Of a stretch of 39,608 nucleotides of DNA, positions 5,073 to 35,815 are shown one piece after another. Under the pieces are notes generated by a model. It worked only from the letters and a program-made list of their open reading frames with translations. It was not told where the DNA came from and ran no database searches. A program made the position numbers and the translations under genes. Position 1 is the stretch's first letter; each line of letters begins with the position of its first letter. Source of the stretch: an uncultured Blautia sp. (GTDB lineage Bacteria > Bacillota > Clostridia > Lachnospirales > Lachnospiraceae); assembly GCA_946545475.1 (NCBI GenBank), contig CAMNNO010000006.1, forward strand, positions 1 to 39,608, given 5' to 3'.

Positions 5073-5104
5073 TCCCCTGCTGACTATCAGCAGGGGATTT
5101 TTTT
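5073..5104 (+). terminator. Intrinsic terminator of rpmB
   Basis: TCCCCTGCTGA-CTA-TCAGCAGGGGA followed by T7. Confidence 0.93.
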
Positions 5105-5194
5105 ATTATGGCAGGGCCACCCATAAGAAATTTGTCACCTGACGGTGACGGGTGGCCCGCCGGGGGTAGAGGCGAGGCAAGCCTCCCTCTACCC
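5105..5194 (+). repeat. Modular structured repeat, unit A
   Basis: ATTATGGCAGG, then GGCCACCC/GGGTGGCC enclosing ATAAGAAATTT and GTCACC-TGAC-GGTGAC, then hairpin GGGTAGAGGcGAGG-CAAG-CCTCCCTCTACCC. Confidence 0.85.
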
Positions 5195-5195
5195 T

Positions 5196-5293
5196 ATTAT
5201 GGCAGGGGCGCCAATCGGAAATAGTCACCTGGCGGTGACGGGCGCCGCCTCGCGGGCGAGTAGGAGGGGAGAATCCCCTCCTACTCGCCCGCG
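5196..5293 (+). repeat. Modular structured repeat, unit B (tandem with A)
   Basis: ATTATGGCAGG, then GGCGCC/GGCGCC enclosing AATCGGAAATA and GTCACC-TGGC-GGTGAC, then a perfect 20-bp stem CGCGGGCGAGTAGGAGGGGA-gaa-TCCCCTCCTACTCGCCCGCG. Confidence 0.85.
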
Positions 5294-13053: not shown

Positions 13054-13164
13054 ATCTTATCTCCTCTTATGGGCCGAAGGCAGGCTTACCTTTCCTCTGC
13101 CCCGGCAGAGCACCGCCGGCTGAGCGTTTCCGGCCGGTGTCCCTTTCATCATAATCAAACATAC

Positions 13165-13257
13165 AATAGGGTAGAGAGAGACGTATTCTCCCTCTACCCC
13201 GGCGGGCTGCCCGTCACCGTCAGGTGACAAATTTCTTATGGGCTGCCCTGCCATAAT
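13165..13257 (-). repeat. Modular structured repeat, unit C
   Basis: Minus strand: ATTATGGCAGG, GGGCAGCCC...GGGCAGCCC (one A.A mismatch) enclosing ATAAGAAATTT and GTCACC-TGAC-GGTGAC, then GGGTAGAG...CTCTACCC. Confidence 0.85.
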
Positions 13258-13258
13258 C

Positions 13259-13287
13259 AAAAAGGGGAAGGCCCTTTTGCCATTCCC
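13259..13287 (-). terminator. Intrinsic terminator of zapA
   Basis: Minus strand GGGGAATGGCAAAAGGGCCTTCCCCTTTTT: stem GGGGAA-GGC/GCC-TTCCCC, then T5. Confidence 0.75.
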
Positions 13288-13315
13288 CATTTACACAATA
13301 TCTGTGCGGATTTTC

Positions 13316-13852: not shown

Positions 13853-14044
13853 AAAAGGGCCTCCATTCATTGTTTCTACAATTAATTTCAAAATTTATTA
13901 ATGATCCTCTATGGTAAAGAGCTTTTTGGGCTCGATATCTTGCGCTTTTCTATTATACTAAAAGAATTTCAAAAAGTATAGCCTTATTTTTGACATTTTC
14001 CGGCCTATTCTTACCTGGCGGTAGGTTATTGTTTGGGAAGAAAT

Positions 14045-15911: not shown

Positions 15912-15965
15912 ATAATAAGAGTATATCATATCCGCCCACTAAAATCAAAATATAAGCAGAAGAAA

Positions 15966-16030
15966 GAAAAAATGGGAACAGTTCTTTTTTCTTGTGATTT
16001 GTAAGAAAAAAGAACCGTCCCCATTTCTTC
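15966..16030 (-). repeat. REP-like 28-bp inverted repeat, copy 1
   Basis: GAAAAAATGGGAACAGTTCTTTTTTCTT / AAGAAAAAAGAACCGTCCCCATTTCTTC; similar copy at 26217-26280. Confidence 0.85.
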
Positions 16031-16076
16031 TTGTTTTTAGATGGATTCGATGACCTGCCTTGGGCAACCTTCTATT

Positions 16077-21439: not shown

Positions 21440-22468
21440 ATGGTCATGGATCACCACATTCTGCCATCCGGGGACAATGCCTTGCTCTTATCACTGGCCG
21501 GCGAGGCTTTGGGGCAGAGGGAGGCTCTTAGTTCTCTCTTTTTATATGATATCGAGACGACCTCGCTTTCGGCCGAGAAGGGGAGCATCTATCTGATCGG
21601 GGGGATATATCTCACGGAAGGGAACAGTGAATTTTTTCAGTGGTATGCTGATGAGCCGGAGGAGGAGCGGCTCATCCTCTCCTCTTTTTCTGAATCGCCC
21701 CTCGGGCGCTCTTCGGTTTCCGTCACCTATAACGGGGATGCCTTTGACCGTCCCTTTATCTGCAAAAGAGCCGCATTCCAGGATCTGCCGGAACCGCCTT
21801 TTCCGGATAGGTCGCTGGATCTTTATAAAAAGCTTGCCTGCCTTAAGAAGCCGCTGGCGCTTCAAAGCATGAAGCAGCCCGCCATGGAAGGGCTGCTTTC
21901 CGGGGCAGAGCCCAGGGAATATCCGGATGGGGGAGAGTGTCTCAGGGTGTACCGGCAGCGGCATATGAGAAGCGATGCGGCGGATATCCTGATGGGGCAT
22001 AACCGGGAAGATCTTATGGGATTGAAAAAGATCATGAGCCTTCTCTCCTGCCTGCCGCTCTTTACCGGGAGTTTTTCCGTTACCGAAAGCCGGGAAGTCG
22101 CATCGGAAGGTGGGAAATGTCTTGTGGTGACGGCTTCGCTTCCCCATCCTTTGCCGATTCCTGTTGTCATTGAAAGTGGGGGGTGCCGCCTGGAGGCCAG
22201 GGAGAGGGAGATGCGGTTTTCTGTATGCGGTAAAAATGGAAAATATCGCCAGTATTACCGGGATTATAAGAATTATGATTATATTCCTTCGGAGGATATG
22301 GCTATGCCTAAGAGGCTTAGTGCGTTTCTTGACCGGTCGCTGCGCAAAAGTGCCAGGGCGGAAAATTGTTATACTTATTTTTCCTGTACGGAGGAGTTTT
22401 TGCATTCTCGGGAAAGGCAGCAGAGGTTTCTGGAAGAATATCTGCATATTTTTTTGAACTTGAGGTAG
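21440..22468 (+). CDS. Ribonuclease H-like / DEDD exonuclease domain protein (YprB family)
   Basis: LFLYDIETTSLSAEKGSIYLIGGIYL (exonuclease motif I) and downstream VTYNGDAFDRPFI and MGHNREDLMGLKKI. Confidence 0.88.
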   Translation: MVMDHHILPSGDNALLLSLAGEALGQREALSSLFLYDIETTSLSAEKGSIYLIGGIYLTEGNSEFFQWYADEPEEERLILSSFSESPLGRSSVSVTYNGDAFDRPFICKRAAFQDLPEPPFPDRSLDLYKKLACLKKPLALQSMKQPAMEGLLSGAEPREYPDGGECLRVYRQRHMRSDAADILMGHNREDLMGLKKIMSLLSCLPLFTGSFSVTESREVASEGGKCLVVTASLPHPLPIPVVIESGGCRLEAREREMRFSVCGKNGKYRQYYRDYKNYDYIPSEDMAMPKRLSAFLDRSLRKSARAENCYTYFSCTEEFLHSRERQQRFLEEYLHIFLNLR

Positions 22469-22477
22469 ATATATCTC

Positions 22478-22608
22478 TTACCTGGCGGTAGGCTTCTGGG
22501 GCGGTTGTCTCTTTGGGACTGAATCATTTTTCTTTTACCTGGCGGTAGGCTTCTGGGGCGGTATGTCTCTTTGGGACTAAACCATTTTTCTCTTACCTAC
22601 CGGTAGGT
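22478..22608 (+). repeat. Tandem 57/58-bp repeat (two full copies plus partial third)
   Basis: TTACCTGGCGGTAGGCTTCTGGGGCGGTnTGTCTCTTTGGGACT at 22478 and 22535; TTACCTACCGGTAGGT at 22593. Confidence 0.92.
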
Positions 22609-22740
22609 GCCAGGGGAGGGGGGGGCCGCTCAGAGTTGCGAAGCCCGCGTCCCCCTCCCCTGCACCCCTCCCCCCAGGGGCACGCCAATTGGTTGTGAGG
22701 GTAAGGAACTTGATCGCTTGGCCGCAAGCTTCTTGTTATC

Positions 22741-22778
22741 GGGAAGAAATGGAAGCGTCCCCTTTTCTTCCCTTTTTT
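22741..22778 (+). terminator. Hairpin plus T-run, possible terminator for the YprB-like gene
   Basis: GGGAAGAAATGG...TCCCCTTTTCTTCCC followed by TTTTTT; resembles the REP-like hairpins. Confidence 0.5.
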
Positions 22779-22827
22779 CCGGTACTCGGTAGATTACCGC
22801 ATACCCTTCGGCGGCGTTAAACAGGAC

Positions 22828-22997
22828 GGCATCGGGTATGGCGTGGCCAGGGGGGCTTTAGGGCGGTTTTAGCGAAGACGAGATCCAGTCCCTACGGAGA
22901 CTTAGCCGCGAAGGCTTTCCTGAGCGGCTTAGTCGTAGTTGGGACTTAGCTCGGCTGAGCGGGCCCTTGTCCCCCCTGACACGCCATACCCGATGCC
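22828..22997. repeat. Long inverted repeat with nested stem-loops
   Basis: GGCATCGGGTATGGCGTG (22828-22845) with CACGCCATACCCGATGCC (22980-22997), extended by CAGGGGGG/CCCCCCTG; nested stems between. Confidence 0.9.
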
Positions 22998-22998
22998 G

Positions 22999-23128
22999 GC
23001 CGTCCGGAGGGGCACAAAGCCTATACCCCCTGTTTGCCGTCCGGAAAGGCACAAAGCCTATACCCCCTGTTTGCCGTCCGGAGAGACACAAAGTCTATAC
23101 TGTCTGTTACCATTCCGGAGAGACACAA
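22999..23128 (+). repeat. 37-bp tandem repeat, about 3.5 copies
   Basis: GCCGTCCGGARRGGCACAAAGCCTATACCCCCTGTTT at 22999 and 23036; diverged copy at 23073; partial at 23110. Confidence 0.92.
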
Positions 23129-26216: not shown

Positions 26217-26280
26217 GGAAGAAATGAGAACGGTTCTTTTTTCTTGTAATTCGTAAGAAAAAACTGTCCCCATTTCTTCC
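26217..26280 (-). repeat. REP-like inverted repeat, copy 2
   Basis: GGAAGAAATGAGAACGGTTCTTTTTTCTT / AAGAAAAAACTGTCCCCATTTCTTCC, directly 3' of the flavoprotein stop codon. Confidence 0.85.
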
Positions 26281-27594: not shown

Positions 27595-27666
27595 ATAATC
27601 GAGTAGGAGGGGAATCTTCCCCTCCTACTCGCCCGCGGGGAGACGTATTCTCCCCCTGCCATAACT
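27595..27666 (-). repeat. Modular structured repeat, unit D (reduced)
   Basis: Minus strand: TTATGGCAGG, GGGGAGA-ATACG-TCTCCCC, GCGGG, CGAGTAGGAGGGGAA-GA-TTCCCCTCCTACTCG, ATTAT. Confidence 0.8.
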
Positions 27667-27670
27667 GCAA

Positions 27671-27708
27671 GCGGGGCCAGACCCCTTTTGAAAGGGGCCG
27701 GCCCCGCC
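27671..27708 (-). terminator. Strong hairpin 3' of the OadA-like gene (no clear T-run)
   Basis: GCGGGGCC-aga-CCCCTTT-tg-AAAGGGG-cc-GGCCCCGC. Confidence 0.55.
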
Positions 27709-33366: not shown

Positions 33367-33942
33367 TCATACCTCCAGCTTGACTTCCGATTTTACCTCT
33401 TCCTCGGCTTCCGCTTTGAAATCGGCGGCCCGGACGGGGTCTATGACAGGCAGGGAGGAGGTATCCTCCATGCCGAAGATGCGCAGGAACTCCTCCGTTG
33501 TCCCAAAAAGGATGGGGCGGCCGGGAGCATCGAGGCGGCCGAGTTCCTTAACCAGGTCAAATTCTATAAGCTTATTGACGGCGTGGTCGCTTTTCACGCC
33601 GCGGATCTTCTCGATCTCGGCCTTGGTCACGGGCTGCTTGTAGGCGATGATCGACAGGGTTTCCAGCATGACATCCGTGAGGACCGGCTTTTTGGGGTGA
33701 AGGGCCAGGCGGATGAGATACTCATAATACTCCTTTTTGGTGCAGAGCTGATAGGCGCTCCCCAGGGTGATCAGCTGGATCCCCCTGTTTTCCTGGCGGT
33801 AGTCTTCCGCCATTTCCTGAAGAATGAGCTTTAGCTCCTCGACGCCAATGAGCATGGCTTTTGATAATTCGGAAAGCTCCACGGAACTTCCCATGGCAAA
33901 TAAAACAGCCTCCAGGGCTGCCTTTATGTGTTCTTTGTCCAA
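33367..33942 (-). CDS. scpB: Segregation and condensation protein B
   Basis: ALEAVLFAMGSSVELSELSKAM and ETLSIIAYKQPVTKAEIEKIRGVKSDHAVNKLIE. Confidence 0.96.
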   Translation of the reverse strand: MDKEHIKAALEAVLFAMGSSVELSELSKAMLIGVEELKLILQEMAEDYRQENRGIQLITLGSAYQLCTKKEYYEYLIRLALHPKKPVLTDVMLETLSIIAYKQPVTKAEIEKIRGVKSDHAVNKLIEFDLVKELGRLDAPGRPILFGTTEEFLRIFGMEDTSSLPVIDPVRAADFKAEAEEEVKSEVKLEV

Positions 33943-35662: not shown

Positions 35663-35763
35663 CCTGCGATAATCGAGTAGGAGGGGAACCTTCCCCTCCT
35701 ACTCGCCCGCGGGGCGGCGTTCGCCGCTAGGCGATGATTTCCTTATGCCGCCCCTGCGATAAT
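35663..35763 (-). repeat. Modular structured repeat, unit E, flanked by 11-bp direct repeats
   Basis: CCTGCGATAAT at 35663-35673 and 35753-35763; between them GGGGCGGC/GCCGCCCC with inner TCGCC-TAGC-GGCGA, and CGAGTAGGAGGGGAA/TTCCCCTCCTACTCG. Confidence 0.88.
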
Positions 35764-35770
35764 GACTAAC

Positions 35771-35815
35771 AAAAATCCCTGACACCTGCCAAGCAGGAGT
35801 CAGGGACTTTTTTAA
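35771..35815 (-). terminator. Intrinsic terminator of rpsU
   Basis: Minus strand TCCCTGACTCCTGC-TTGG-CAGGTGTCAGGGATTTTT. Confidence 0.9.

Follow-up and report, generated by a model that had tools for sequence, protein, structure and literature searches.

Group IIC introns insert behind intrinsic terminators, according to the statements in PMC4424553 and PMC8919778 that cite Robart et al. 2007. In the solved complex of the Eubacterium rectale IIC intron, where EBS1 is AAAG, IBS1 is CTTT, IBS3 is T and the intron ends with AU, the maturase holds the DNA stem (PMC10190682). Linear group II intron RNAs can be joined to the target by the 3' end alone, the 5' side being closed by other processes, as demonstrated in Drosophila (PMC3280974). 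Degenerate or non-autonomous forms are believed to arise only rarely from group II introns in bacteria, and forms without a normal domain V would have escaped notice (PMC4424553). A search of a literature collection for short repeats behind terminators or for SINE-like parasites of bacterial group II introns yielded no paper.

The window, that is, the whole analysed stretch of 39,608 nucleotides, comes from a draft genome of the genus Blautia (G000, 3.33 Mb in 318 contigs) and contains several units of a repeat family. The unit is about 93 nt long and consists of WTTAT, the imperfect hairpin P1, the hairpin P2, and the end CTACTCGAT or CTACCCTAT, after which the next base is usually T; the 5' start may be written as WTTATSSC. 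P1 is built of a foot of 3 bp, a single bulged purine, a further 9 bp or so, a purine-rich bulge on one side (for example, TAAGGAAAT or AAAGGAAT) and, at the apex, a hairpin whose loop has 4 nt. Double changes are seen in 19 of the 26 pairs, and 93.4% of the cells are paired, compared to 76.4% after shuffling; a shift of the pairing by 1–3 columns destroys the support. The unit has no open reading frame. Rfam scans of the window and of the cousin loci assigned no RNA family to the units; low-threshold matches to microRNA and snoRNA models were dismissed as chance.

The sequence-only reading of the window claimed that every unit stands directly behind a terminator-like hairpin in one orientation, and this holds at all four loci. 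The rpmB terminator, recognised in the sequence and by folding, is the target site at the first of them (plus strand, hairpin at 5073–5097, T7 at 5098–5104). Unit A, complete, of type G and with the 3' end CTACCCTAT, starts at the next base (5105–5198, plus strand; R3 model, 96.8 bits, E = 5.4e-22), exactly as had been noticed. It is followed, after its P2 hairpin, by the tandem unit B (5196–5293, plus strand; P1 model, 53.1 bits at 5196–5256), which combines a type-G P1 with a type-C P2 lengthened to a perfect 20-bp hairpin (inverted repeat 5251–5270/5274–5293).

The other three loci are on the minus strand, and their hairpins were recognised in the sequence. The zapA terminator (hairpin and T-run, 13259–13288) is separated by a single G, as had been read, from the complete unit C with the 3' end CTACCCTAT (13165–13257; R3 model, 90.1 bits, E = 2.4e-20); behind it lies a probable decayed tandem unit (13068–13152) with a weak score (R3 model, 16 bits, E = 0.035). 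The rpsU terminator (hairpin and T-run, 35771–35806) precedes the complete unit E with the 3' end CTACTCGAT (35671–35763; R3 model, 92.8 bits, E = 5.1e-21), the spacer GTTAGTC being of the expected 7 nt, and a pattern match, ATTATCGCAGG, directly after P2 of unit E marks the 5' stub of a further unit (35663–35673). The OadA-like gene has a terminator-like hairpin on its 3' side (27671–27707), which is followed by unit D (27597–27665; R3 model, 45.2 bits, E = 2.4e-9), with an internally shortened P1, a type-C P2 and the end CTACTCGAT. Here the measured spacer is 5 nt, in agreement with the earlier estimate of about 4 nt. The claim on which end of the unit faces the terminator is right at all four loci; unit D begins with GTTAT rather than ATTAT.

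Several other repeats were seen in the window. Those with TTACCTGGCGGTAGG occur at 22449–22619 (three in tandem), 14010–14029 and 33788–33807. Three 37-nt tandem repeats around CCGTCCGGAGAGACACAAAGCCTATACC occupy positions 22986–23128 and adjoin an inverted repeat (22824–22854/22971–23001). Weak matches at 22688–22821 were examined and judged to be chance. A second palindromic family, GGGACGGTTCTTTTTTCTT ... AAGAAAAAAGAACCGTCCCC, is present at 15964–16032 and 26218–26279 and looks like another mobile hairpin; the units at L048 and L051 are placed behind its copies.

The pattern ATTATSGCAGG occurs 124 times in the whole G000 genome, compared to one occurrence of the reversed control, and the model built from diverse units yields at least 150 copies. 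Flanking regions of about 1 kb on each side were retrieved for nearly all copies, and 122 of the 124 strict copies were read. Five units are identical over 91 nt. Most units come after a same-strand stop codon, the usual distance being 45–150 nt. Many contigs end within a unit, 27–50 nt from the contig end (for instance, C8, C118, C151, C175 and C193), hence the family itself fragments the assembly.

The rule seen in the window is genome-wide. When the 50 nt preceding each of 103 non-tandem copies were folded, the median was −26.2 kcal/mol, compared to a mean of −11.1 nearby, with 97% below −10. A strict hairpin ends 0–12 nt upstream of 85 out of 98 non-tandem units; the fraction is 1.8% at 1500 random positions, and 8% when the 3' flank of the units is scored (Fisher p ~ 4e-102). 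Each of the five bases immediately 5' of the unit is T in 66–89% of cases. A minority of the target hairpins, such as those at L033 and L062, have no T-run, which suggests that the main cue is the hairpin. The second and third units of tandem arrays (e.g. the one at 5196) stand behind the 3' hairpin of the preceding unit rather than behind a terminator.

Four bidirectional terminators (L049, L082, L095, L098) have units on both sides, each of them pointing outward and starting right after its own T-run. As Tn-ATTAT is thus seen on both sides of all four, it is unlikely that ATTAT is a pre-existing target sequence and not a part of the element; a case that speaks mildly against this view is L047, with a following unit that adjoins ...CCCTAT and lacks TTAT. 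At the other end, the first base past the unit is T in 22 out of 30 cases in G000 and in 15 out of 15 in G035, a related genome, and this trailing T could be a part of the element.

Sites without units, which the sequence-only reading had suggested looking for in close relatives, were also found: the rpsU terminator is retained without a unit in about ten relatives, and there is no unit in the rpsR region of G035. Taken together, the genome-wide rule, its presence in other species, the bidirectional and tandem cases, and the unit-free rpsU terminators indicate that the insertion of these repeats is directed by hairpins, and strongly support the suggestion that it is terminator-directed as in group IIC introns.

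The unit-rich relative G035 corresponds to Blautia sp. RGIG5147, a metagenome-assembled genome (MAG) from the sheep abomasum. The model search found at least 78 copies there, two each in G031 and G034, and one each in G404 and G043, the latter two belonging to another genus and another family, respectively. All these counts are lower bounds. The association with hairpins is observed in G035 and in single copies of G031, G034, G404 and G043. In a class-wide search, with ten candidates per genome scored, units were found in at least two of 391 genomes, and the family is absent from most genomes of the genus; its wider distribution is uncertain. The G035-type pattern has matches in two Blautia MAGs, so that a unit is present in a second Blautia MAG besides RGIG5147; the 24-base type-C pattern has no match in named genomes, and a search of viral contigs yielded no units. 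In the related genome G022, a P1-like hairpin, GCGCAGTGATTCTGTAAAGAATATGTCAGCTTACGCTGAC..., is present at three places (L112, L119, L123) with a different second hairpin, and possibly represents a sister family.

A link to introns that goes beyond the sequence-only reading is provided by P2. In G002, weak matches to the unit model proved to mark group II intron 3' ends. When the model was applied to 57 kb of intron-bearing loci, all ten matches with E ≤ 5 (the best E = 8.5e-6) were at intron 3' ends: where Rfam has a domain V–VI match, the two coincide, and the remaining matches are at the expected 3' end. P2 can be aligned with intron domain VI over the full length, including, in one type, a bulged C, the main change being an extra base facing the branch-point A; it also has the conserved 3' end ...AY of domain VI. 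None of 1000 composition-matched random hairpins reached the score of the main type-C or type-G consensus from G000, and nine of 1000 reached that of a type-G variant, while the single copies from G043 and G031 gave no significant result. Judged by these comparisons, there is homology between P2 and domain VI, which forms the 3' end of the group IIC introns in this genus.

The IIC introns of the genus are placed behind terminators in the same orientation as the units. A resident IIC intron of G035, also behind a terminator, ends with CTCCCTCTACCCTAT followed by T, similar to the G035 units, and hence in this genome the tail is common to the unit and to an autonomous retroelement. The unit and the IIC intron have target and orientation in common, and likewise the 3' end with the T that follows. 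Mobility, targeting and the shared tail of the units are well supported.

The reverse transcriptase of the G035 IIC intron is interrupted. At L277 (G035:C163), a IIC intron behind a terminator has its reverse transcriptase split by an insert of about 320 bp bounded by GGCGGATTATG...CGGCATAAGGCGG, which is perhaps another small mobile element. Reverse transcriptase was not found in G404 or G043, which have single units, nor in the G000 draft, so the proposed partner in G000 is either unassembled or lost; multi-copy introns are often unassembled in MAGs. A group II domain V–VI without a detected intron body is present in G000 3' of an hsdR-like reading frame (L263, 1501–1577, G000:C16), an intron relic.

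P1, in turn, has no detectable counterpart in introns. The P1-only model, applied to introns, matched no intron domain and nothing at domain V, and the reading of P1 as a degenerate domain V was rejected on this ground. The unit contains no domain V with the catalytic triad, no GUGYG 5' end and no domains I–IV, and the window has no match to RF00029 or to the Rfam D1–D4 families. The position of the branch-point A in P2 is occupied by U-A in 11 cases, C-G in four, A-U in one, and is unpaired in one (n = 17), with no bulged A; one G035 subfamily has C-G there. With this position paired, and by C-G in one subfamily, P2 is unlikely to function as a branch site. Lacking domain V, the GUGYG 5' end and the bulged A, the unit is not filed as a group II intron; it is a probable derivative or parasite of one that works like one in the target choice.

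An alternative is a terminator-directed mobile element whose P2 came to resemble domain VI by convergence on GC-rich hairpins, some enzyme being responsible for its mobilisation. The reverse transcriptase missing from the G000 draft and the lack of a P1 counterpart in introns would agree with this, but we consider it unlikely given the random-hairpin test on the main consensus of types C and G, the selection of intron 3' ends by the unit model, and the 3' end common to the unit and the intron in G035.

Less likely again is a DNA element with hairpin ends, similar to REP or IS200/IS605, on which a single-strand Y1 transposase would act in trans. The units are indeed palindromic, with no reading frame and no evident target duplication, and there are three Y1 transposase matches in G000, as well as matches in many relatives. 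However, unit-rich G035 has such a transposase only as a contig-end fragment, G004 has 14 matches and no units, and the homology of P2 to domain VI would be left unexplained. Y1 (IS200/RAYT) transposase is not supported as the driver. We know of no requirement for a hairpin in the target in the Y1/IS200/IS605 family.

Least likely is a structured RNA of 3' untranslated regions retained for its function (stability, readthrough control or backup termination) and not for mobility, which would fit the strongly conserved, covarying structure and the location of nearly all units 3' of a same-strand stop codon, but not the lack of units in most members of the genus, the unit-free rpsU and rpsR terminators of relatives, the number of G000 and G035 unit loci with a common gene (about five, roughly the chance estimate), the tandem arrays, or the bidirectional terminators flanked by a unit on either side. 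The other suggestion of the sequence-only reading, a function in 3'-end or readthrough transcripts, thus gained no positive evidence, the loci not being conserved and most species of the genus having no units; individual copies may still have such a function.

We return to the relationship with introns. The units probably are, with a probability of about 0.6, a non-autonomous miniature relative of group IIC introns, similar to SINEs or to the Euglena group III introns, with mobilisation in trans by the intron reverse transcriptase. The element inserts in the T-tract at the foot of the intrinsic-terminator hairpin, its 5' WTTAT end always facing the hairpin, and insertion at the foot of its own 3' hairpin generates the tandem arrays. 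We infer an RNA intermediate, mobilisation in trans and an EBS1-like role of the P1 bulge: the element would spread as RNA with a 3' tail common with a group IIC intron, the intron protein would insert and reverse-transcribe this RNA in trans, similar to the use of LINEs by SINEs or the reliance of Euglena group III introns on external machinery, and the bulge (AAGGAA, AAAGGA) may pair with the T-tract. Since linear intron RNAs can be inserted via the 3' end alone, insertion is conceivable in principle also for a unit that has the right tail but lacks a proper 5' end.

A stronger version, to which we would assign somewhat less than even odds, is a bacterial SINE–LINE pair, where a coreless RNA element of about 93 nt, with at least 150 copies, would be parasitic on group IIC reverse transcriptases via its domain VI-like tail, use the same terminator targets, and represent a bacterial counterpart of the Euglena group III introns. 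If this is true, a short, coreless, high-copy relative with an intron tail and an intron target rule would provide the counterpart of SINEs and group III introns that has been missing in bacteria. The choice of RNA by its 3' end in a retroelement–parasite system would become testable in bacteria, and so would the reduction of a ribozyme to a dependent RNA, a step proposed for the origin of spliceosomal introns.

Among known systems, the BOX, RUP and REP/BIME repeats are, similar to the unit, short, structured and intergenic, and sometimes modular or tandem. To our knowledge, they are tied neither to the foot of terminators nor to the ends of group II introns. The ORF-less bacterial group II introns served in trans also are kin of group II introns and encode no protein (PMC4424553), but they retain the catalytic core including domain V, whereas the unit does not. 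Group IIC (bacterial class C) introns share with the unit the location right behind terminator hairpins, the orientation and the homologous 3' end (domain VI, ...CTACYCGAT or CTACCCTAT) followed by T. However, they are about 2 kb long, compared to about 93 nt, and the unit has no reading frame, D1–D4, domain V or GUGYG, its branch-point A being paired. The group III introns of Euglena chloroplasts are as short (90–120 nt), have no domain V, and are described with DI and DVI motifs only (PMC4424553), whereas the unit is bacterial, intergenic, located behind terminators and known here from sequence, and its P1 matches no intron domain. Finally, SINEs with their LINEs present the same combination of a short, non-autonomous, high-copy element with the 3' tail of an autonomous retroelement and the same target preference, the difference being that the unit is bacterial and its putative partner is a group II intron.
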